Origin: a virus
Length of the DNA stretch: 64,000 nucleotides
Virus record (IMG/VR): IMGVR_UViG_3300023184_007611
Coordinates: 37,046-101,045 of that record
Direction: 5' to 3' (one strand)
Below are positions 31,852-59,007 of this stretch, piece by piece. Under the pieces are notes generated by a model. It was not told the DNA's origin and did no database searches. It worked only from the letters and a program-made list of their open reading frames with translations. The stretch's first letter is position 1, and the number at the start of each line of letters is the position of its first letter. The position numbers were made by a program, and so were the translations under genes.

Positions 31852-33267
31852 ATGAACTTTAAAAGCTGGCTATTAATAACTGAAATGGCAAAGTCCTTTT
31901 CACCTAAATATCTTGAAACAAATAGTTTACAGGCTTTATCTGAAATTGAACGAAATCCTGTTTTAAAAGCTAGATATAAAATATTGGTATCTGAATGGGA
32001 TAAAAAAAATAATACATTAACTCCTAAAGATGTAACGCTAGGAAGTGAAAAAGAGATAAATTGGAAATGCATTAAGAAAAAACACACATGGTCAGCACCA
32101 CTTAACAGTAGAACAAGAGGTACTAATTGTCCTTGTTGTTCAAACTTTATAGCTTGTAAAGATAATAATTTACAGTATTTATCTAAAAATTTACCAGAAT
32201 CTGATTTAAAAGCTAGATATAAAAGATTGGTATCTGAATGGGATAAAGAAAATAATATATTAACTGCTAAAGATGTACTGCCAGGAAGTAGGCAAGAGAT
32301 AAATTGGAAATGTAAAGAAGGACATCTATGGCCAGCACCAATTAGTAGTAGAACAACATTGGGTTCAAATTGTCCTGATTGTTCATCTACAAACAAAAGA
32401 GTTACTAAAGACTATAATTTACAAGCTTTATCTGAAAATTTACCAGAATCTGATTTAAAAACTAGATATAAATTTTTGGTATCTGAATGGGATAAAGAAA
32501 ATAATATATTAACTCCAAGTGATGTAACGCCAAAAAGTGGTAAAGAGATAAATTGGAAATGCATTAAGAAAAAACACACATGGTCAGCACCACTTAGCAA
32601 TAGAACAAAAGGTTATAATTGTCCTTGTTGTTCAAACCAAGAAGTTTGTAAAGATAATAATTTACAAGCTTTATCTAAAACTTTACCAGAATCTTATTTA
32701 AAAGCTAGATATAAAAGGTTGGTATCTGAATGGGATAAAGAAAATAATATATTGACTCCTAAAGATGTGACGCCAGGAAGTGATAAAGAGATAAATTGGA
32801 AATGTAAAGAAGGACATCTATGGGTAGCACCACTTTCTCGTAGAACAGGAGTGGAAGCAAATTGTCCTACTTGCAATCAATCTAAAGGTGAAGAAAAAAC
32901 ATATGAAATATTACAAAAGTACATAAGTCCAACACAAATTAAACGCCAATATCGGGATACAGATTGTAGAGGAGATTGCTTTTCTTTAAGATTTGATTTT
33001 ATAGTAGAAATAAATAAAAAAAAATACCTTATAGAATATAACGGTCAACAACATTACAGACCAGTATTTGGTTCTACACCAGAGCAAAGACAATCTGCTT
33101 TTGAAAAAGCTCAAAGGTATGATAAAGTTAAATTAGAATATTGCAGAAATAAAAACATTCCTTTTTTGGTAATTCCATATACGAAATATAAAAACATCGA
33201 AACAATAATAAGCAGTTTTCTTAAAACAAAAACTTTTGATAGTAAATTTGCAGAATTAGGATTGTAA
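31852..33267 (+). CDS. Tagged nuclease with four zinc-ribbon repeats
   Basis: The 471-residue protein starts MNFKSWLLITEM (tag, I-T-E). Residues about 20-345 carry four repeats of about 80 residues: LKARYK-x-LVSEWD-x-x-NN-x-LTPKDV, GS-x-KEINWKC, GH-x-W-x-AP, RT, NCP-x-C. These match the probable zinc-ribbon domain DUF4379, in which two Cys pairs bind zinc. The last 120 residues form a nuclease-like domain: a helix SKGEEKTYEIL, RFDFIVEI, YLIEYNGQQHYRP and PFLVIPYT. The Asp in the first strand and E-Y-N-G-x-x-H in the next fit a PD-(D/E)XK or Vsr-like site. Tandem DNA- or RNA-reading repeats with a cutting domain are inferred. The next gene is a tandem paralogue 7 bases away. Confidence 0.75.
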   Translation: MNFKSWLLITEMAKSFSPKYLETNSLQALSEIERNPVLKARYKILVSEWDKKNNTLTPKDVTLGSEKEINWKCIKKKHTWSAPLNSRTRGTNCPCCSNFIACKDNNLQYLSKNLPESDLKARYKRLVSEWDKENNILTAKDVLPGSRQEINWKCKEGHLWPAPISSRTTLGSNCPDCSSTNKRVTKDYNLQALSENLPESDLKTRYKFLVSEWDKENNILTPSDVTPKSGKEINWKCIKKKHTWSAPLSNRTKGYNCPCCSNQEVCKDNNLQALSKTLPESYLKARYKRLVSEWDKENNILTPKDVTPGSDKEINWKCKEGHLWVAPLSRRTGVEANCPTCNQSKGEEKTYEILQKYISPTQIKRQYRDTDCRGDCFSLRFDFIVEINKKKYLIEYNGQQHYRPVFGSTPEQRQSAFEKAQRYDKVKLEYCRNKNIPFLVIPYTKYKNIETIISSFLKTKTFDSKFAELGL

Positions 33268-33274
33268 ATAAACT

Positions 33275-34453
33275 ATGAACTTTAAACATTGGCTGCTAAT
33301 CTCTGAAATGGCAATATTTTCACCTAAATATCTTGAAACAAATAGTTTACAGTATTTATCTGAAAAGGCATCAGATCCTGTTTTAAAAGCTAGATATAAA
33401 AGATTGGTATCTGAATGGGATGGCCCTGAAAATAAAAAAGAGCTTAATCTTACTCCAAGTGATGTAACACCTGGCAGTAAAAAAAAGATAAATTGGAAAT
33501 GTCTTGAAAAAGGACATAAATGGGCAGCAACTCTCAACAGTAGAACAAATGGTGGAAATAATTGTTCTTGTTGTTCAAACCAACAAGTTTGTAAAGATAA
33601 TAATTTACAGTATTTATCTGAAAAGGCATCAGATCCTGTTTTAAAAGCTAGATATAAAAGATTGGTATCTGAATGGGATAAAGACAACACATTAACTCCT
33701 AAAGATATTACGCCAGGAAGTGATAAAAAGATAAATTGGAAATGTAAAAAAGGACATATGTGGAAAGCAGAGCTTAGTAGCAGAACAAGAGATGAGAGTA
33801 ATTGTCCTTGTTGTTCAAATTTTAAAGTTTGCGATGACAATAATTTACAGTATTTATCTGATAATGAAGAAGATCTTGGAAAAAGAGAGAGATATCAAAG
33901 GTTGGTATCTGAATGGGATAAAAACAATATATTAACTCCTAAAGATGTATTGCCAGGCACTGGTCAATTTATAAATTGGAAATGTAAAAAAGGCCATACA
34001 TGGGAAGCATCTCTTGTTAGTAGAACAGGATTGAATTTAAAAACTAATTGTCCTATTTGCAATGAATCTAAAGGTGAAGAAGAAATATTTAAAATATTAC
34101 AAAATTACATAAGTCCAGCACAAATTAAACGCCAATATAAAGATATAGATTGCAGAGGAGATTGCCTTCCTTTACCATTTGATTTAATAGTAAAAATAAA
34201 TGACAAAAAATACTTTATAGAATATAACGGTGAACAACATTACAGACCAACATTTGGTTCTACACCCGATGAAAGGCAATCCGTTTTTGAAAAAACTCAA
34301 AGGTATGATAAAGTTAAATTAGACTATTGTAGAAGTAAAAACATTCCTTTTTTGGTAATTCCATATACGCAATATAAAAACATCGACACAATAATAAGCA
34401 GTTTTCTTAAAACAAAAACTTTTGATAGTAAATTCGCAGAATTAGAATTGTAA
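33275..34453 (+). CDS. Tagged nuclease with three zinc-ribbon repeats
   Basis: A 392-residue tandem paralogue of the preceding gene. It begins MNFKHWLLISEM (tag, I-S-E), has three of the same 80-residue zinc-ribbon units (NCSCC, NCPCC and NCPIC being the second Cys pairs), and ends with the same nuclease domain: ESKGEEEIFKIL, LPFDLIVKI, YFIEYNGEQHYRP and PFLVIPYT. It differs from its neighbour by one repeat and by substitutions throughout. One fewer repeat suggests unequal recombination between repeats. I infer a sequence-reading nuclease delivered with the genome. The junctions on both sides share the sequence AAATAAACTATGAACTTTAA. Confidence 0.75.
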   Translation: MNFKHWLLISEMAIFSPKYLETNSLQYLSEKASDPVLKARYKRLVSEWDGPENKKELNLTPSDVTPGSKKKINWKCLEKGHKWAATLNSRTNGGNNCSCCSNQQVCKDNNLQYLSEKASDPVLKARYKRLVSEWDKDNTLTPKDITPGSDKKINWKCKKGHMWKAELSSRTRDESNCPCCSNFKVCDDNNLQYLSDNEEDLGKRERYQRLVSEWDKNNILTPKDVLPGTGQFINWKCKKGHTWEASLVSRTGLNLKTNCPICNESKGEEEIFKILQNYISPAQIKRQYKDIDCRGDCLPLPFDLIVKINDKKYFIEYNGEQHYRPTFGSTPDERQSVFEKTQRYDKVKLDYCRSKNIPFLVIPYTQYKNIDTIISSFLKTKTFDSKFAELEL

Positions 34454-34460
34454 ATAAACT

Positions 34461-36197
34461 ATGAACTTTAAAGAATGGTTATTATTATCTGAAAACACAA
34501 ATATTGCTCAATTATTAAAGCAATCCAATGATCCAATAATTAAACAAATTAAATCAAATGTAACAAAACTTGTAAATGCTTTCGCTCACAACATAAAAGA
34601 AAACATCAAATCCACTTTCATTAACTTTTATACTTGGAACTTTTATAATTCAAAAGAATCAAACTTTCAAACACACATTTATTCCACTAAAGATTATTTA
34701 ATGGCTAATTACCAAAAACTAAATTTAACCGATCCAAACTTCACACTTGAACAACTAACACAAGAATCAGATGAATGGCACGAAGAATTAGAAGCAAACC
34801 AAGCAATCCCAGCTAGAGAAGCTGAAACTTTTATAGATTTATCTCATTTAGGATCTCAATGGAAAGGCTGGCGATGGGTTTCCTTAGATCGTTATAAGTG
34901 CGAAATGGAAGCAAAAAGTGGTGGGCATTGTGGTAATGCTGCTGGTATAGAAGGAGATAACATACTATCTTTAAGAGATCCGCAAAATATAGCAAATCTT
35001 ACTTTTATCGAAAATAAAGGAATATTAGGCGAAATGAAAGGCATTAAAAATTCAAAACCATCTACAAAATTTCATCAACCAATAATAGAATTACTTAAAA
35101 ATGACAAAATAATAACCATCAAGGGCGGTGGGTATTTACCAAAAAATAATTTTTCATTAGATGATTTAAGTAATAAAGAAGAAATACTTAAATTAAAACC
35201 AGATTTGGATTTTGTAAACTATAATTCAAAACCAGAAAAAATAAAATATCTTACTGATGAAGACATTGAATATCTATTTGATAAAGCAAAAGACAAAGAA
35301 AAAATAGAAAATTTAGTTATTCAAAATAAACAAGATCTTTCCGATGACAATGTTCACCAGTTACTTAAAAATACAAAAAACACATACGAAATGTCAAAAA
35401 TAATAATTAAAAAGAACCCACAACTTTCTGATGCTATTGTTCTTTATTTACTTGAATTTGCACATGACAAAGACGATATGGCTAAAATTATTTTAAATAA
35501 CAAACCAACAATTTCTACTAAAGATGTTTCTACTTTACTTGATAAAGCAACTAACAAAGACGAAATAGCAAAATTAATTATTGAGAAAAATACAGAATAT
35601 GGAAGTAATAAAGTTGTTAATGATAATAAAATTTATTTCTTACTTTATCATGCAATTGATAAAGAAAGCATAGAAAAACTATTAGGAGCGTACAGCTTAA
35701 ATAAGCTTTTTGATAGTACTGTTGCTGAATTTCTTAAATCTTCTAAAGATAAAGACAAAACGGCAGAAATAATCATAAAATACAAAACAAAACTTTCTAG
35801 TAACAATGTTTATAATTTGCTTCATTTTGCAAAAAATAAAGCAAGTATAGCGAAACTATTAGGAGCATATAATATAAGCAATATTTATGAGTTTGATATT
35901 TCTAATTTGCTCCATTTTGCAATCGACAAAGACAAACTGGCGGAAATAATCATAGATTATAAAACAAATTTTGATAATGAGAGTGTTTATATTTTGCTTT
36001 ATTATGCAGTTAACAAAGAAAATATAGCAAAGCTGTTAGGAACAGATAATATAAACAAGCTCGAATTAACTTCTATTAATCGTCTGCTTGATTTTCCGCC
36101 AGATAAACAAAAAATGGCACAAGTTTTAAATCACTATCACACAAAGAAAACACCAGAAATTCAAGAGCTAATAGATAAATACCTACATGAACTTTAA
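34461..36197 (+). CDS. Tagged protein with PcfJ-like core and helical repeats
   Basis: The 578-residue protein starts MNFKEWLLLSEN (tag, L-S-E). Residues about 120-220 hold WKGWRWVSLDRYKCE, GGHCGNAAG, ILSLRDPQNIANLTFIE and GILGEMKGIKN, a block like the H-C-V-G-x core of PcfJ-like proteins. From about residue 270 to the end there are some ten helical repeats of about 35 residues with patterns such as V-x-x-LL-x-x-A-x-DK-x-x-(M/I)-A-(K/E)-(I/L)-I. The end PEIQELIDKYLHEL overlaps the next tagged gene by 11 bases. A decayed copy of this end sits at 52995. No enzyme class can be named. I infer a packaged protein. Confidence 0.65.
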   Translation: MNFKEWLLLSENTNIAQLLKQSNDPIIKQIKSNVTKLVNAFAHNIKENIKSTFINFYTWNFYNSKESNFQTHIYSTKDYLMANYQKLNLTDPNFTLEQLTQESDEWHEELEANQAIPAREAETFIDLSHLGSQWKGWRWVSLDRYKCEMEAKSGGHCGNAAGIEGDNILSLRDPQNIANLTFIENKGILGEMKGIKNSKPSTKFHQPIIELLKNDKIITIKGGGYLPKNNFSLDDLSNKEEILKLKPDLDFVNYNSKPEKIKYLTDEDIEYLFDKAKDKEKIENLVIQNKQDLSDDNVHQLLKNTKNTYEMSKIIIKKNPQLSDAIVLYLLEFAHDKDDMAKIILNNKPTISTKDVSTLLDKATNKDEIAKLIIEKNTEYGSNKVVNDNKIYFLLYHAIDKESIEKLLGAYSLNKLFDSTVAEFLKSSKDKDKTAEIIIKYKTKLSSNNVYNLLHFAKNKASIAKLLGAYNISNIYEFDISNLLHFAIDKDKLAEIIIDYKTNFDNESVYILLYYAVNKENIAKLLGTDNINKLELTSINRLLDFPPDKQKMAQVLNHYHTKKTPEIQELIDKYLHEL

Positions 36198-37899
36198 AAG
36201 CTGGCTATTAATAACTGAAGCAAAGAAATCAAGCGACATTGCCAAAGAACTTCTCGGCAACGATGATTTATTTAAAAAAATAAAATCTATCATTCCAACA
36301 AATATACCAGAAAAATTACAAGGTCAATTACTTCCTATCGCTGCATTCTACTACAACCAAGAAGAACCACAAATTGTGGTTCTAAAAGACTACTTGGAAG
36401 ATTATGCCAATCTTGTAAAAAATCAAAAAATGAACATCATTACAGTAAAAGATGACCTTACTGTTGATGGCGATTTTAAATCTTTTATCCATTGGACTGA
36501 AATAATTGATGTTTTAACCCATGAAGGCAAAGTTATCAATACACCAATACAAGGCGATCTTGAAGGCCAAGAAGTAATCGAACATTCACCAGACCTTAAG
36601 ATAAAGGTTTATCTGGCAAACTCAGCAAATCAATGTATCGTACTCGGCAAAGGTGAATCTTTCTGTATATCAAGACACGGCCCACATAATATGTTCCAAA
36701 CTTACAGAGATACTAAAGTATCAACTTTCTACTTCGTTTATGATAACACAAGAACTGATGACCTTGCAATTACTGTAGTTGATGTAACAGAACATGGTAT
36801 TGAACTTACAGATCGAAAAAACGACACAGCAAAAACTATGCAAGATCCTTATCAAACTACACCAAAAAGAATAACATCAGACCCAGATTTATACTTTAAA
36901 TATTTAAAAGAAAAAGGAATTGATACAACTGTATTCAAAAATATACCAAAATCACCAGAAGAAGAAGCCGAACAGGAAAAATTAGGTAAAACAAATTATA
37001 ATTTAAATTGGTTTAAAGCACTATCACCAATAGAAAAATCTAATTACATAGGAAGAGTACATAGACTTTCAGATCCTCAATTTGATTACATACACGATAA
37101 CAATATTGCTTCATTATTAAAACAATATGTTAAGACTGGTTTGAAACTTGAAAATTATCAGCTTAAAAAAGTTATTGCTAAAAAAGAATTAAAAGATATT
37201 TATTTACATAATAGATTGATATTAGATAGGCAAAATGAAGATCTTTCTAAAGAAGAATTTAATTTATTTACACCAAAACAACAAGAGGAGTTTTATAATG
37301 TTACTGATGAATTAAAAATTCACAAAGCTCTTCAAATTGAAGACTTTTCTCTGGTAACAGAATTGATCGAAAAAGGACAAAGCGTCCCATATTATGCTGC
37401 TGGTCACGCAATAAAGGCAGATAGACTTGACCTATTAAAATATTTTGTAAAACACGGTATGATATTACAAGACTCTAATTCGATTATGTATGCAGTAAGA
37501 TATGGCAGGCTTGATATTTTAAAATACTTGATTGAAGAAAAAAATATTAATGTAGTCCCAACTGATATCGAAGAAGCTTTTAGAAAAGATAATGTTGATA
37601 TTATAAGATACTTAATTGATGAAAAAAAACTCCGCATGCCTTATAATGCTGTTGATATTGCAGCAAGTAATGGAAGTATTAATGTTTTAAAATACTTGAT
37701 TGATGAAAAAAATAAAATTTTTACATCTAGTAATGTAAAATCTGCAAGCCTTTCTGGAGAACTTGATGTTTTAAAATACTTTTTTGATGAAAAAAGTTTT
37801 ATGCTAGAACCTAAAGATTTTCCATTTACTATCAATAATGCAAAAACACAAATAGTTAAAGATTATTTAATACAAAAACAAAAAGAACAAAATAAATAA
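36187..37899 (+). CDS. Tagged protein with YFVYD domain and ankyrin repeats
   Basis: This 570-residue protein begins MNFKSWLLITEA (tag, I-T-E). Residues 20-290 share the domain of the 17852 product: CIVLGKGESFCISR, YRDTKVSTFYFVYDNTR, TPKRITSDPDLYFKYLKEKG. The C-terminal 180 residues are ankyrin-like, with five units such as G-(R/S)-L-D-(I/V)-LKYL-(I/F)-(D/E)EK. The same front domain is thus joined to different rear ends in the two paralogues. Ankyrin repeats normally bind proteins, so a host target is conceivable. The start overlaps the previous gene by 11 bases. Confidence 0.7.
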   Translation: MNFKSWLLITEAKKSSDIAKELLGNDDLFKKIKSIIPTNIPEKLQGQLLPIAAFYYNQEEPQIVVLKDYLEDYANLVKNQKMNIITVKDDLTVDGDFKSFIHWTEIIDVLTHEGKVINTPIQGDLEGQEVIEHSPDLKIKVYLANSANQCIVLGKGESFCISRHGPHNMFQTYRDTKVSTFYFVYDNTRTDDLAITVVDVTEHGIELTDRKNDTAKTMQDPYQTTPKRITSDPDLYFKYLKEKGIDTTVFKNIPKSPEEEAEQEKLGKTNYNLNWFKALSPIEKSNYIGRVHRLSDPQFDYIHDNNIASLLKQYVKTGLKLENYQLKKVIAKKELKDIYLHNRLILDRQNEDLSKEEFNLFTPKQQEEFYNVTDELKIHKALQIEDFSLVTELIEKGQSVPYYAAGHAIKADRLDLLKYFVKHGMILQDSNSIMYAVRYGRLDILKYLIEEKNINVVPTDIEEAFRKDNVDIIRYLIDEKKLRMPYNAVDIAASNGSINVLKYLIDEKNKIFTSSNVKSASLSGELDVLKYFFDEKSFMLEPKDFPFTINNAKTQIVKDYLIQKQKEQNK

Positions 37900-44119: not shown

Positions 44120-46561
44120 ATGAATAAAATATCTAATCACGAATTGAAAAGTAATAATCTGGTGAAGAAACTTGCTTTATTTTATAGAAAAAATAATAAT
44201 TACCCATGTCGCAAAGACAATTTAGCTTTATATAATTTTTTACTAACTAAAAGAAGCGTCTTTAAAAGTAAATCAATTAAAAATAAAATATATCCTTCGG
44301 ATATAGAAGTTGCTAAACTACACGGACTTCCAGATGATTGGCTATCCACTAAAAATGAACAAGAATTGAAAAGTAATAATCTGGTAAAGGAACTTGCTTT
44401 GTTCTATAGAAAAAACAATGATTATCCATGTAAAAAATCTAATTCAATTTTATATTATTTTTTACAGAATAAAAGAAGAAGCTTTAAACATAAATCAAAT
44501 AAAAATAGAAATAAAAATAGAAATAAAATATATCCTTCAGATATAGAAGTTGCTAAATTACACGGACTTCCAGATGATTGGTTCTCAACTAGTAATGAAC
44601 TTGAAAGTAACCAAAAAATAATCAAAATTGCAGAACATTTTAAAAAACATGGAACTTATCCTTCTAGAAAAACATTATTAGGCAAACACTTAACTAACAA
44701 ACGATCTAGTAAAGATGGAACATATAAAATATATCCATCAGATATAGAAGTCGCTAAAGCTCATGGACTTCCTGATGATTGGATGTTACTCATCAATCGT
44801 GAATTTGAAAGTAACGAAAGAATAAAAGAACTTGCACAAGAATTTGTAAGACTTGGAAATTATCCTAATCGTAATACTAAACTTGGACAACTACTAGCAT
44901 GGAAAAGACACATATATAAAAAATACATTATTGGCAAACAAAAAAAATATAAGGCTCTTTGGTATCCTTCAGATATAGAAGTAGCTAAAATTCATGGACT
45001 TCCTGATGATTGGCTCTCCATTAGCAATGAATTTGAAAGTAATCAAAAAGTAATTGAAATAGCACAATACTTTAAAACACATGGAGCTTATCCTGATTAC
45101 AATTGTAAAATTGGAGTTTCATTGTCAAATAAAAGACTAAGTTATAAAAAACACACTAATAGTAAAAAATGTAATCTCAAATGGTATCCATCAGATATAG
45201 AAGTCGCTAAATTACACGGACTTCCAGACGATTGGATTATAAATACTGATCTTGAAAAGGAAAGTAATCGAAAAGTAATTGAAATAGCACAATACTTTAA
45301 AACACATAATGATTATCCTGATTACAATTGTAAAATTGGAGTTTCATTGTCAAATAAAAGACTAAGGTATAAAAAACACACTAATGGTAAAAAATTTAAT
45401 TCCAAATGGTATCCATCAGATATAGAAGTCGCTAAAGCTCATGGTCTACCAGATGATTGGATTATCAATAATAATTTTGAATTAGAAAGTAACCAAAAAG
45501 TAATATTATTAGCACAAGAATTCACTAAAATTGGAAACTATCCTGATATAAATTCTACAAATGGAAAATTCTTAAAATATAAAAGAAAAGCATTCAAACA
45601 CTATACCAATAAAACTAAATCAAAATATAAATGGTATCCATCAGATATAGAAGTCGCTAAAGCTCATGGTCTACCAGATGATTGGATTATCAATAATAAT
45701 TTTGAATTAGAAAGTAACCAAAAAATAACTAAAATAGCACAATACTTTAAAACACATGGAATCTATCCCAATAGTAAAATTGGGATTGGGAGATTTTTAA
45801 AAAATAAAAGAAAAGCATTCAAACACTATACCAATGGAACTAAATCAAAATTAAAATATACATGGTATCCTTCAGATATAGAAGTCGCCAAAGCTCATGG
45901 GCTTCCTAACGATTGGATGCTGATTATTGATTTTGAAAAAGAAAGTAATCAAAAAGTAATTGCACTAGCACAAGAATTTAAAAAAATCGGAAACTATCCA
46001 GACAATTATTCTTTAAATGGAAGACTGTTGATTACTAAAAGACAAGCATTCAAACACTATACCAATGGAACTAAATCAAAATTAAAATGGTATCCTTCAG
46101 ATATAGAAGTCGCTAAAGCTCATGGGCTTCCTAACGATTGGATGTTAGTTAAAAAACAAAAATCATCATTAGGAGAAAGAAAAACAAATTTTATACTCGA
46201 AAAATTTAACATTAAACCAATACAACAGTACAGACATAAACTTTGTGTCAATAAATTGTGCCTGCCTTTTGATTTCTATTTCAATAAAGATAACTTACAC
46301 TATTTCATAGAATACAACGGAGAACAACATTATAAACCAATCTACGGAAAAACACAAATTATAAAAAAAGAACATTTAAAATATGTTCAAACAAACGACC
46401 TAATTAAATTAAACTTCTGCAAAAAAAATAACTACCCACTTCTAGTAATACCTTATTGGATAAAAGATTTCGAAAACCTTATATCAGAATTCTTAAAAAC
46501 TACACAATTTGATCCAAACTTCGCTCAACCAATTATTCCAAATTTACCTGAATTAAATTAA
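44120..46561 (+). CDS. Nuclease with nine helicase-associated-like repeats
   Basis: The 813-residue protein carries nine tandem repeats of 68-80 residues. Each has a helix ESNQKVIEIAQ-x-FK, a G-x-YP turn, a G-x-x-L-x-x-KR helix, a K-rich loop, and the closing WYPSDIEVAKAHGLPDDW. This resembles the helicase-associated (HA) DNA-binding repeat. After the last repeat comes SLGERKTNFILEKF and a nuclease domain: PFDFYFNKDNLHYFIEYNGEQHYKP and PLLVIPYW, closely matching the ends of the two zinc-ribbon nucleases at 31852 and 33275. It lacks the tag. I infer a programmable-looking sequence-reading nuclease or homing-type enzyme. A repeat-wise DNA code is not shown. Confidence 0.75.
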   Translation: MNKISNHELKSNNLVKKLALFYRKNNNYPCRKDNLALYNFLLTKRSVFKSKSIKNKIYPSDIEVAKLHGLPDDWLSTKNEQELKSNNLVKELALFYRKNNDYPCKKSNSILYYFLQNKRRSFKHKSNKNRNKNRNKIYPSDIEVAKLHGLPDDWFSTSNELESNQKIIKIAEHFKKHGTYPSRKTLLGKHLTNKRSSKDGTYKIYPSDIEVAKAHGLPDDWMLLINREFESNERIKELAQEFVRLGNYPNRNTKLGQLLAWKRHIYKKYIIGKQKKYKALWYPSDIEVAKIHGLPDDWLSISNEFESNQKVIEIAQYFKTHGAYPDYNCKIGVSLSNKRLSYKKHTNSKKCNLKWYPSDIEVAKLHGLPDDWIINTDLEKESNRKVIEIAQYFKTHNDYPDYNCKIGVSLSNKRLRYKKHTNGKKFNSKWYPSDIEVAKAHGLPDDWIINNNFELESNQKVILLAQEFTKIGNYPDINSTNGKFLKYKRKAFKHYTNKTKSKYKWYPSDIEVAKAHGLPDDWIINNNFELESNQKITKIAQYFKTHGIYPNSKIGIGRFLKNKRKAFKHYTNGTKSKLKYTWYPSDIEVAKAHGLPNDWMLIIDFEKESNQKVIALAQEFKKIGNYPDNYSLNGRLLITKRQAFKHYTNGTKSKLKWYPSDIEVAKAHGLPNDWMLVKKQKSSLGERKTNFILEKFNIKPIQQYRHKLCVNKLCLPFDFYFNKDNLHYFIEYNGEQHYKPIYGKTQIIKKEHLKYVQTNDLIKLNFCKKNNYPLLVIPYWIKDFENLISEFLKTTQFDPNFAQPIIPNLPELN

Positions 46562-54595: not shown

Positions 54596-55870
54596 ATGGC
54601 TAAAAAAAATTTATGGTACTGGGGAATCAATCATCATGTTAGAAGTACTCCTCCAGATCCTCGTAATGATTTTCTTCCGCATTTGGTAGGTGCAGGACTT
54701 AATTGGAGTTGGAAGCATATTACAGTTAATAGGGAAGGAGCACATGGTATAACTGAAAATGGTGATTTATACGGATGGGGAAATGATTGTGATTATGCTG
54801 AGGTTGCCACAAAAGTACCACCTTATTACAAAAGAGTTTGGTATTGCGTTTCTTTAACTGGTAAAGGTAGAAAAGAATGCAGGCCAGGACAACCAGGCTA
54901 TGATCCAGAATCTGGATTTATTAAAAATGGTCGTATTGTAAGACCAGAAGAAAAATGGAAAGATGTATCAAGAGGCGTTAGACATGTTGCTGGAATTACT
55001 AGAAGTGGAAGATTATATAGCTGGGGTACAAATTTCAACGGAGAACTTGGAAGAGGTAGAGAAATCGAACAACCAGGTAGATTGAAACCAAATCAAGTTG
55101 TTTCTTATAAAGGCATAAGGTTTTATCCTGTTGAAATAATGATTGGTGGAAATGATTGGATTCAGGTAAAATGTGGCTTTAAGTTTTCAATAGCATTAAA
55201 AGAAGATGGCTCAGTATGGTATTGGCCTACTAATGGTGGAAGAGGTTGCTCAGATTGTTTTAAATTCCCTAAACCACTTTGCAAAGGACAATTTTGTGGT
55301 CCTAAAAAAATAGCTACTGATTTCAAAAAAATCGCTTGTACATTTGACAGTGGCCAAGTTTATGGTCTTAAAAAAGATACTACAATTTGTAAATTTATTA
55401 GGTCATTTGGGAGTGAAGCAGAAGCTTCAGTTTTAACTCAATTAGGAGATGGATGGAAAGATGTTACATGCAATTTTAATGATGGAGGCGGTGGAATAAA
55501 AGAAGATGGAACTTTATGGACATGGGGACCAAATTATAGTGGCGAGCTTGGGATTAATAAAAGCAAAAATGAAGTTGTATATTCTTCTTCTCCAGTACAA
55601 ACAACTTTAGGTGGTAATGATTGGAAGTCAATTACTACTGGCAATAATTCTAATACAAAATATGCTATAAAAAATAATGGTAGTTTATGGTGTTGGGGAG
55701 GTAATTCCACAAACATAGGAATTGGTGGTCTTAATTTTGAAGTTCGTGAACCTATACAAAATATTAAAGATAGCGTAGGATGGAAAATGGTATCTACAGA
55801 TGTATTAGGAACATTAGCTATAAGAGATGTAAAATTTGAACCTACAACAACAGTACCACCTAATAATTAA
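54596..55870 (+). CDS. RCC1-repeat beta-propeller protein
   Basis: A 424-residue protein with about six RCC1 blades: [86 protein letters not shown] and the ending [11 protein letters not shown]. Two Cys-rich inserts ([19 protein letters not shown]) interrupt the blades. It starts [14 protein letters not shown] directly with a blade, without the N-terminal domain of the copy at 314. AAAGGAATAATAAA precedes the ATG. Probably a virion or attachment protein. It is followed by a non-coding array of 15-base repeats. Confidence 0.8.
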
Positions 55871-55876
55871 TACACG

Positions 55877-56014
55877 CATATCAGCAAGGTACATATCAGC
55901 AAGGTGCATATCAGCAAGGTACATATCAGCAAGGTGCATATCAGCAAGGTGCATATCAGCAAGGTGCATATCAGCAAGGTGCATATCAGCAAGGTACATA
56001 TCCTTGCTGATATG
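55877..56014 (+). repeat. Eight 15-base direct repeats with an inverted end copy
   Basis: The unit GCATATCAGCAAGGT (or ACATATCAGCAAGGT) is repeated eight times at exactly 15-base spacing up to 55995. An inverted copy follows at 56000-56013 (ATCCTTGCTGATAT), so the last copy forms a 12-base-pair hairpin, and any other could pair with it. One frame would code [10 protein letters not shown] repeats, but no start codon opens it. Confidence 0.85.
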
Positions 56015-56364
56015 GTTATATTAACTTATAGCAAGTAAAATACAACGAGATAACATAATAGTTGTTTGAACAACTGTTGTTTATAACGAGATAGTAAAAT
56101 GAGTAATTTAAGTAGTTTGAGTTATTTTTTTTAATTTATAAAAGTAATGGCTAAAGCTACAAACTAAAGAAGGTATTAATAAATTTAAGATTATAGTTCA
56201 GCCATTAATTATTATAAATGGTTTTAGTTTATATTATCAGTAAGATTTATTTTTATTTTCAAAGTATTTTTTGAAAAAAGGGTGGAATGGGAGAAGAGTG
56301 TTTGGTAGAACAAGGTAGAAGATGATGTGTACCTCTTCGCCCAGATTTAAAATGGAGGTAAGAT
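56015..56364. other. Non-coding stretch
   Basis: About 350 bases without a convincing gene. It has two copies of AACGAGATA (56044 and 56086), a small inverted repeat GTTGTTTGAACAAC near 56062 and AT-rich sequence. GGAGGT near 56353 is the ribosome binding site of the next gene. No tRNA or terminator seen. Confidence 0.5.
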
Positions 56365-57012: not shown

Positions 57013-57040
57013 AAATTTCAAAAATTAATTTTTTTCAATT

Positions 57041-57170
57041 TCCTTATTGTACGGATGTACTTCATTTCCCTATTGCACGGATGTACTTAAATTTCGTATT
57101 GCACGGATGTACTTCATTTCCCTATTGCACGGATGTACTTAAGAATTCCTATTACACGGATGTACTTGAG
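57041..57170 (+). repeat. Five 26-base tandem repeats
   Basis: The core TATTGCACGGATGTACTT occurs five times with starts 26 bases apart (27 for the last). Variation is in the linker (CATTTCCC or AAATTTCG). It is not coding on either strand. It resembles iterons or a multi-site binding array. Confidence 0.85.
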
Positions 57171-57378
57171 ATTCCAACGAGAGAATTCCAGCGTCACGAG
57201 CTACAGGGACAACGGTATAAGTTTATATAGTGTCCTAATTTTCCTGAACGCCTGCACGGTTGACGAATAAGCTTATAAGTTTATATAGTATCCTGATTTT
57301 CCTGAATTCCTGCGTCACGAGCTACTTGCGTCACGAGTTCAGTTCAGGATAAGCTTATAAGTTTATTTAAATGATTTA
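57171..57378 (+). repeat. Mosaic of short dispersed repeats
   Basis: TATAAGTTTATATAGT with TCCTAATTTTCCTGAA occurs at 57216 and again, slightly changed, at 57275. GCGTCACGAG occurs at 57191, 57312 and 57328, and AAGCTTATAAGTTTAT at 57269 and 57351. No ORF fits. Parts look like duplicated promoter pieces. Confidence 0.7.
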
Positions 57379-57450: not shown

Positions 57451-57486
57451 ATAAAAAAGCCCCGTTAGTTTATAATCTAACGGGGT
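57451..57486 (-). terminator. Strong intrinsic terminator for the tRNA transcript
   Basis: On the minus strand CCCCGTTAG and CTAACGGGG form a 9-base-pair GC-rich stem with an 8-base loop, followed directly by CTTTTTTATTT. It ends the minus-strand unit that carries the intron-bearing tRNA. The plus-strand side has a poorer T run. Confidence 0.88.
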
Positions 57487-57772: not shown

Positions 57773-57821
57773 TGGGGATAGTGGGAGTTGAACCCACATG
57801 ATGTTGCCATCGAGGGATTTT

Positions 57822-58583
57822 CAACAAGATGAATGTTTTCACATTCTGGTTACTTGTTTGGACTATATCATCACCTTCAACATTACTTGGTTAGGTGTCG
57901 TGAGCATAAGTCTCTGAACCTTCCTCATTTTAAAGAGGCTCGGCTGCTGATTGCCCAATTTCCCATAGTTTTATAACTTTCGCACCCGTTGTTTCCAACC
58001 ATGCTGTAGTCATGGGAACTATAAGGGTATTCCAGCAATTTCCACGATTCTCATTCATAGATTTCTCTATGATGGCTCGTTGCAAATCAAGATATTTATG
58101 TAGTCTACCATGTGTTCTTCTGTCCATCACCATAAGGTTTTTTACATCGTTATTCTTATAATTATTATCAACATGATGAATTACCATATTGTAAGATAAT
58201 TTTCCAAGAATACTTTTTGCAATTTCTCTGTGTTCACATTTCGCCCCAATCATTTTATATTGATTAGAACTCAATGTTTCTTTTGCAAGCTTTTTATTTA
58301 GTTTCCAACAATCAGAACAATGTTTTTGTTCTTTTCGCCAACCTAAATATTCTTTCTTGCAAACTTCACAGATTATTTTAATCCTTCTGGTAAATGGATC
58401 ATTTTGGTAACGATTCTTAGCACATTCCCTTTTGTGCTTAAGATAACATTCCCTACACATCTTTCGACCAACATCACGATCTTGATTGCATTTAATGCAC
58501 ATCTTTGGTTTTTTGCTCATGTTTTAAATTAGTAATCCTAATTAAAAAATTGGCATACTTATCAAATTAATACATTAAAAGTC
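57822..58583 (-). mobile_element. Group I intron with HNH ORF in tRNA-Leu(UAA)
   Basis: The 762-base insert follows exon 1 ending in U and ends with G at 57822, as group I introns do. The core elements are plain on the minus strand: P/Q-like AATTGGGCAATC and AGCAGCCGAGCC (57960-57937), R element GTTCAGAGACT (57919-57909) and S element GATATAGTC (57869-57861). R and S form the P7 guanosine-binding helix. An ORF for an HNH endonuclease fills the 5' part and its last codons run into P/Q. The intron-plus-endonuclease is a mobile element that could home into uninterrupted tRNA-Leu genes. Confidence 0.9.
57930..58520 (-). CDS. Intron-encoded HNH homing endonuclease
   Basis: A 196-residue protein starting MSKKPKMCIKCNQDRDVGRKMC. 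Three Cys pairs (CIKCN, CRECY and CEVC with CSDC) form zinc knuckles in the first 90 residues. The nuclease core is MVIHHVDNNYKNNDVKNLMVM followed by RTHGRLHKYL, the H-H, N and H of an HNH site. The ORF starts 63 bases into the intron and its end overlaps the conserved P/Q core. It would cut intronless tRNA-Leu genes and start homing. Its composition and basic charge are usual for such proteins. No strong ribosome binding site is seen. Confidence 0.88.
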   Translation of the reverse strand: MSKKPKMCIKCNQDRDVGRKMCRECYLKHKRECAKNRYQNDPFTRRIKIICEVCKKEYLGWRKEQKHCSDCWKLNKKLAKETLSSNQYKMIGAKCEHREIAKSILGKLSYNMVIHHVDNNYKNNDVKNLMVMDRRTHGRLHKYLDLQRAIIEKSMNENRGNCWNTLIVPMTTAWLETTGAKVIKLWEIGQSAAEPL

Positions 58584-58623
58584 AAGTCCCTTGCGTCTGC
58601 CAGTTCCGCCATATCCCCTTTGT

Positions 58624-59007
58624 TTAGTTCCACCAAGCAGTAGTTTTACTTTCTTGGTTAAAATCTTTTTTATGAAGTGTTTTTATTACTTTATCAAATT
58701 CTTCTCCCAATTCATGGATACGAGAGATTGAGATTAAAACATGAGTTCCCCCAATTGCAGTTTCTTGAATTTCTGTAAGTCTTTCAACAACTTCTTTGAA
58801 CAAGTCTTTAGTTGCAATAGCAAGGTTTCTTAATTCTTTTTTATTGGTGACTAGATCAATTGTAAAAGAATCTTGCAATACTGCAATTGCTCCAAGACTA
58901 ACCTTTATCTTATCTCCTTTTTTAATTTTCTTCAATTCATTTAATGAATCTTGAAGGAACATAGCCAAGGCATCGAACAGTTTTCTAGTTTTATCATCTA
59001 CTTTCAT
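58624..59007 (-). CDS. Hypothetical helical protein upstream of the tRNA
   Basis: A 127-residue protein, MKVDDKTRKLFDALAMFLQDSLNELKKIKKGDKIKVSLGAI-like, nearly all helix with heptad-like Leu/Ile spacing and balanced charge. It ends with SKTTAWWN. AAAAGGAGTGGTAAT is an excellent ribosome binding site. It leads the minus-strand transcript that also holds the split tRNA, 5 bases on. A conserved promoter-like motif lies 36 bases upstream. No family recognised; a small nucleoid or scaffold protein is conceivable. Confidence 0.6.
   Translation of the reverse strand: MKVDDKTRKLFDALAMFLQDSLNELKKIKKGDKIKVSLGAIAVLQDSFTIDLVTNKKELRNLAIATKDLFKEVVERLTEIQETAIGGTHVLISISRIHELGEEFDKVIKTLHKKDFNQESKTTAWWN

Follow-up and report, generated by a model that had tools for sequence, protein, structure and literature searches.

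We identified a phage tRNA-Leu(UAA) gene that is split by a group I intron, and the intron itself carries an HNH endonuclease gene. From sequence comparison, we consider it a mobile intron of phage origin, with a probability of roughly 0.86. A group I intron with an HNH gene is a known kind of element; here it lies in a class of genes in which phage introns had been said not to occur. The window analyzed here is a 64,000-nucleotide stretch of DNA, corresponding to positions 37046 to 101045 of a 101,045-bp IMG/VR virus record (29% G+C).

A tRNA-Leu(UAA) gene interrupted by a group I ribozyme

When ARAGORN was run without introns, no tRNA was found in the 64-kb window. With introns allowed, exactly one was detected, a tRNA-Leu(taa) on the complement of 57773-58618, which had 84 bases once the 762-nt intron was removed and a junction of gactt/aaaat (Table 1). 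The acceptor, anticodon, and T stems of the exons were fully paired in this parse, and a variable arm was present. The complete tRNA-Leu(UAA) and the insertion between U34 and A35, both proposed in a preliminary description of this DNA, were thus borne out, and comparison with cyanobacterial introns confirmed that the position is the one used in cyanobacteria and plastids.

A cmscan search with all Rfam models gave a single match in the 64 kb, to RF00028 (Intron_gpI, 58095-57846, minus strand), with 59.6 bits and an E value of 1.4e-12, above the gathering score of 50. The Q, R (GGTTCAGAGACT), and S (GATATAGTCC) elements and the final G of the intron were all located where they had been described. 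The guide-sequence GAG and the exon CUU, which would pair to form P1, were present in all 12 introns of the window's type (type A, see below), and all ended in G.

Table 1. Features of the window (window coordinates unless another record or locus is named) and of related loci
Feature	Location	Strand	Basis or remark
tRNA-Leu(UAA) 5' exon GGGGATATGGCGGAACTGGCAGACGCAAGGGACTT, ends ...GGGACUU (U34)	58584..58618	-	ARAGORN with introns
tRNA-Leu(UAA) 3' exon AAAATCCCTCGATGGCAACATCATGTGGGTTCAACTCCCACTATCCCCA, begins AAAAUCCC (A35)	57773..57821	-	ARAGORN with introns
Group I intron, 762 nt, ends in G	57822..58583	-	cmscan, ARAGORN with introns
HNH endonuclease ORF, 196 aa	57930..58520	-	
Cysteine pairs, residues 8-71	58308..58499	-	Cys invariant in alignment
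HNH domain, residues 97-139	58104..58232	-	HH...N...H conserved in nine relatives
Internal guide sequence AACGAGCC	58074..58081	-	GAG would pair with exon CUU (P1)
P2 hairpin	58052..58074	-	double changes in 7/7 pairs
P3, 5' strand	58042..58049	-	
P4-P5-P6 domain	57919..58041	-	includes P5abc-like extension 57960-58018
R element GGTTCAGAGACT (P7, 5' strand)	57909..57920	-	cmscan
P3, 3' strand	57898..57904	-	
P8	57872..57897	-	
S element GATATAGTCC (P7, 3' strand)	57860..57869	-	cmscan
P9 region	57824..57857	-	
127-aa ORF, function not known	58624..59007	-	ends 5 bases before tRNA
Terminator-like hairpin and T run	57460..57485	-	downstream of tRNA
Short repeated units	57040-57180; second repeat array 55814-56024		
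RCC1-/ankyrin-repeat proteins	314-2044, 54596-55870, 36187-37899; L375 172-3051; L376 9302-10681		
Large treble-clef/HNH-type homing endonuclease proteins	31852-34453 and 44120-46561		phrog_559, DUF4379
tRNA-Leu(UAA) intron of Atu_ph07 (L392)	MF403008.1 112929-113244		cultured Agrobacterium phage, 490 kb; type C relative
tRNA-Leu(UAA) group I intron (L393)	LR756501		uncultured 735-kb phage
tRNA-Leu(UAA) group I intron (L394)	LR756511		uncultured 595-kb phage
Phage tRNA introns with anticodons CAU, GUU, UCU, UGU	L284, L287, L290, L305, L311, L321, L326 and others		

The 12 type A cores, beginning at the guide sequence, were aligned through to the 3' end and folded with RNAalifold. The consensus contained P2, P3, P4, P5, a P5abc-like branch with a GAAA loop and an A-rich bulge, P6, P6a, P8, and two P9 helices, with 97.7% of cells paired. 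Changes on both sides were seen in 40 of the 62 core pairs, compared with 18.8 +/- 2.5 in shuffles and 7-16 in control structures slid by 1-3 columns. Covariation supported P3, P4, P5, and P8; P6 proper showed none, and P7 showed none because its strands are nearly invariant. The P1 of the window intron was short, with about 4 pairs. As for an extension of P1 across the HNH insert, the window copy was no better than shuffles, and a clear excess was found only in L002 and L015.

In IA introns, helices P7.1/P7.2 lie between P7 and P3. In type A introns, this distance was only approximately 4-5 nt, and no P7.1/P7.2 helices were present. Two subgroup assignments were considered and rejected, IC1/IC2 on account of the P5abc-like domain and IA2 on account of the sequence: the intron shows only part of the defining features of each, and P7.1/P7.2 are among those that it lacks for IA2.

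An HNH gene that enters the ribozyme core

The ORF in the insert, previously described as an HNH gene, matched PF13392 (HNH_3) with an E value of 3.2e-7, above the curated cut-off, as well as PHROG HNH families. In the alignment, H115, H116, N124, N128, H137, and H141 were invariant, and the cysteine pairs in the N-terminal half are probable zinc ribbons. Between the 5' splice site and the GAG guide sequence lie about 500 nt, and the HNH gene thus fills the P1 loop. Its reading frame continues past P1 through P2-P6, with the N-terminal part in the P1 loop and the C-terminal ~50 residues encoded by P1'-P2-P3-P4-P5-Q-P6. In L007, L009, L013, and L015, the ORF was open across nearly the whole core to P9. 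Neither this arrangement nor the abundance of phage tRNA introns had been part of the preliminary description.

Outside the core, comparison of L001 with L002 gave a dN of 0.32 and a dS of 1.67, indicating that the ORF is under purifying selection there. Inside the core, pS was 0.11, versus 0.67 outside, and other intron pairs showed the same contrast to a smaller degree. This drop in synonymous change is direct evidence that one sequence acts both as ribozyme and as coding sequence. ORFs reaching into the intron core, with expression then under tight control, have been described in a review (PMC3984707).

A protein search of cultured phages with the HNH protein gave no match, a PDB sequence search gave no HNH relative, and a search of plasmids with the intron core was likewise negative. 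The AlphaFold model of the protein had a pLDDT of 84, and a structural search with it returned no significant match, so no structural relative is named.

Relatives of the window intron and its probable mobility

Searching viral contigs with the HNH protein revealed four loci (L002-L005). In L002, on a 458,813-bp contig, L003, and L004, the related ORF lay within a group I intron (RF00028, 70-74.5 bits). L005 matched only in the C-terminal, core-coded part, since its intron has no HNH gene. Further type A contigs were gathered by the pattern of R, S, and 3' exon, giving 12 distinct introns, 11 of them from viral contigs other than the window. All were inserted at the U34/A35 bond in tRNA-Leu(UAA)-like genes, the exons of which had strongly diverged. 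At several loci, ARAGORN gave the labels tRNA-Phe, Ser, SeC, or Stop, which were discarded: the splice site was ambiguous by 1-3 bases and was resolved to Leu(UAA), ACUU/AAAAU.

The HNH gene was intact in nine of the 12 introns, contained several stops in L012, and was absent from L005 and L010. Other viral contigs (L389-L391) contained intronless tRNA-Leu genes whose anticodon arm was the same. The pattern fits the expectation for a homing intron, with invasion followed by decay and loss. Taken together, the purifying selection on the HNH gene, the scattered and decaying copies, and the intronless tRNAs with the same arm make it likely that the intron is mobile.

The following course of events is proposed. 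The pre-tRNA would be transcribed, and the intron core would take up guanosine in P7. The RNA would then be cut after U34, with P1 formed by the exon CUU and the guide-sequence GAG, and U34 would be joined to A35. The product would read UUA, the commonest Leu codon in this AT-rich genome. The HNH protein would be translated from unspliced RNA and would nick or cut intronless tRNA-Leu(UAA) genes of co-infecting phages at the conserved anticodon arm, and repair would copy the intron into the cut gene. As the C-terminal part of the protein is encoded by the ribozyme core, translation and folding should compete, and HNH expression is thus expected to be tied to the unfolded precursor.

A wider class of tRNA introns in phages and bacteria

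Intron types A, B, and C were sorted by the sequence of the R element only. At least 53 distinct tRNA-Leu(UAA) introns were found in at least 59 viral loci, namely at least 12 of type A, 32 of type B, and 9 of type C; these counts, which draw on a looser viral scan that also picked up protein-gene introns, are lower bounds. In bacterial MAG loci, 48 tRNA-Leu(UAA) introns were found, of which 46 were type B, 2 were type C, and none was type A. These 48 (among L131-L230) came from MAGs of Clostridia, Bacteroidales, Gastranaerophilales, Beggiatoa, and other bacteria, and some were long enough for HNH genes or were shown to have them. Non-cyanobacterial tRNA-Leu introns look common. Type B can carry another HNH gene, ending just before R (read in L024 and L175). 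Since this gene differs from that of type A, the U34/A35 site has apparently been taken by separate intron-endonuclease pairs.

Phage tRNA introns were also present with the anticodons CAU, GUU, UCU, and UGU, sharing the P9 motif. Several further observations concern the tRNAs themselves. In seven intron-split phage tRNAs with a UAA anticodon (L009, L029, L036, L039, L056, L084, and L091), the variable arm was short, which is not the case in normal tRNA-Leu. In Bacteroidota MAGs, tRNA-Arg(UCU) genes carried an intron at the equivalent U34/C35 bond (L133, L157, and L214), and that of L133 encodes a PD-(D/E)XK endonuclease (PF11645, E 5e-34). In a 165-kb viral contig, L061 8328-8633 matched both the beta and the permuted tmRNA models.

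No cultured phage was matched by a type B intron query. The type C query matched Atu_ph07, and two huge uncultured phages also had tRNA-Leu(UAA) introns (Table 1). All three were missed by ARAGORN without introns and at the Rfam gathering threshold, and they are not annotated as tRNAs in their records. Neither the Atu_ph07 paper (PMC6102473) nor the huge-phage paper (PMC7162821), both of which relied on tRNAscan-SE, makes mention of an intron. It has been stated that tRNAscan-SE is not designed for detecting group I introns (PMC8450103). The default scans tried here miss such intron-split tRNAs, and phage tRNA counts therefore miss genes, those for tRNA-Leu(UAA) included.

Affinity with phage protein-gene introns

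When the window core was compared with cultured phages by blastn, it matched introns in capsid, RNA polymerase, DNA polymerase, RtcB, and tail genes, many of which adjoin HNH genes. A sequence-based alignment of 64 introns was then used for trees, with ten protein-gene introns, 79 columns in P3-P6, and cyanobacterial tRNA-Leu(UAA), tRNA-fMet, and tRNA-Arg(CCU) introns collected via a cyanobacterial genome. Three long-branch rows were removed for the final trees and AU tests. Type A was grouped with the phage protein-gene introns with a support of 100/99 on the core, and P3-P6 gave the same grouping. These protein-gene introns (IA2 type, in DNA polymerase, RNA polymerase, capsid, and RtcB genes) are nearest in core sequence and share the P3-P6 domain and a nearby HNH-type endonuclease. 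Unlike them, the window intron lies in a tRNA, has no inserts of the P7.1/P7.2 kind, and holds its HNH gene in the P1 loop, and most of its type A relatives have a tRNA-type P9.

It is possible, though we hold it only tentatively, that the ribozyme is a mosaic, in which a phage protein-gene intron supplied P3-P6 and the HNH gene, and a tRNA intron already present at U34/A35 supplied P1-P2 and P9. This would add to the main explanation rather than exclude it. Along the molecule, Q-P6 of type A was nearest to phage protein-gene introns (identity 0.66 versus 0.36-0.53), while P9 was nearest to tRNA introns of types B and C and cyanobacterial tRNA-fMet (0.52-0.58 versus 0.18), and the phage protein-gene introns inspected had different P9 regions. 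When the P9 motif alone was scanned in viral contigs, only 5 of the 144 matches among the loci collected were outside tRNA genes, and the others lay in tRNA anticodon loops (129 were flagged automatically, and 10 more were judged on reading to be tRNA 3' halves, truncated or variant), in a locus set partly chosen for tRNA exons, with ~100 loci not so chosen. On the other hand, separate partitions showed no significant conflict, the P1-P2 and P7-P9 partition still grouped type A with protein-gene introns (98/92, with the P9 of the latter mostly missing from the alignment), and the window's own P9 is diverged. The segment identities and the P9 distribution thus suggest domain exchange, of which the partition trees are no proof.

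The source record and the state of the intron

The description of the record as phage-type was upheld by Shine-Dalgarno motifs, which preceded 21 of the 45 ORFs, compared with 7% of random ATGs. PHROG families of the RCC1, HNH, Mom, and CobS type were matched, and no capsid or terminase gene was recognized among the scanned ORFs of the 101-kb record fragment. That the intron resides in a cellular genome or a eukaryotic virus is improbable. The RCC1, ankyrin, and DUF4379 proteins and the small number of PHROG matches would be in line with such a host, but the Shine-Dalgarno motifs and the PHROG families that were matched speak for a phage, as do the occurrence of the same intron type in the 458-kb viral contig and its absence from the 48 tRNA-Leu introns of bacterial MAGs.

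UUA accounted for 49% of the Leu codons, and Arg(UCU) was the sole other tRNA found in the record, both of which fit an AT-rich genome. The 127-aa ORF and the tRNA-Leu lie 5 bases apart and are probably on one transcript. Several RCC1-repeat proteins and one ankyrin-repeat protein occur together in this phage-like record, which is unusual for a phage. Free-standing homing genes abound in the window, as seen from the large phrog_559/DUF4379 proteins. Short repeated units, such as ttgcacggatgtactt, lie near the tRNA, and a second repeat array is situated further upstream.

A dead remnant, in which splicing is lost and the tRNA is no longer produced, is a quite improbable reading of the intron. 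P1 looks weak, and the P9 of L001 and L002 deviates from the family. However, the core helices are all intact, pairing is kept in the window's P9, the exons form a complete tRNA, and the HNH ORF is intact and under purifying selection.

Probable convergence with the cyanobacterial intron

The cyanobacterial/plastid tRNA-Leu(UAA) intron shares the tRNA, the U34/A35 site, the guide-sequence GAG, and the final G with the window intron. The two differ in lineage, and the window intron has the P5abc-like domain and the HNH ORF; its length is 762 nt, compared with 212-312 nt for the cyanobacterial tRNA-Leu introns sampled. The preliminary description had offered two origins, one shared with cyanobacteria and one by independent insertion, and the cyanobacterial clade had accordingly been set as a hypothesis before the tree was built. 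Descent from, or exchange with, the cyanobacterial/plastid IC3 intron is very unlikely: the identical site, the common GAG, the similar P2, and the lack of long inserts between P7 and P3 in both would favor it, but AU tests rejected a clade of type A with cyanobacterial tRNA-Leu introns (p = 0.0116 on P3-P6 and 0.0048 on the core; 0.12, not significant, on P1-P2 and P7-P9) and likewise the placement of every tRNA-Leu intron in one clade (p = 0.0001), the best tree places type A with phage protein-gene introns, and the P5abc-like domain of the 12 type A introns is missing from the cyanobacterial set. Independent insertion is the part of the proposal that stands. From the trees and AU tests, type A and the cyanobacterial intron were most likely inserted at this bond in separate events, that is, the shared site most likely reflects convergence, with a separate, phage origin of type A.

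The cyanobacterial tRNA-fMet intron with I-Ssp6803I has a P9 similar to that of the window's type but lies in another tRNA. This tRNA intron is mobile, its endonuclease targets an anticodon region, and I-Ssp6803I is a PD-(D/E)XK enzyme, not HNH. Outside cyanobacteria, the same tRNA is interrupted in Beggiatoa/Thiomargarita, for which putative tRNA-Leu(TAA) introns have been reported (PMC4853749); these are bacterial, and the copy from Beggiatoa in our set (L190) belongs to type C and is short and without an ORF, unlike the window's type A.

Implications

A 2014 review stated that every phage intron seen until then lay in a protein gene, although phage tRNA genes are numerous (PMC3984707), and our search of the open-licence literature turned up no report since then of introns in phage tRNAs. 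The present data contradict that statement: introns in phage tRNA genes are common among viral contigs from metagenomes. If the ribozyme is a mosaic, a protein-gene intron would have gained its tRNA home by domain exchange and not by reverse splicing. The textbook cyanobacterial/plastid site appears to have been occupied independently by phage-associated lineages whose HNH genes differ and lie in different loops. The U34/A35 site may therefore serve for testing why introns are drawn to anticodon loops, and whether phages carry tRNA introns between bacteria.
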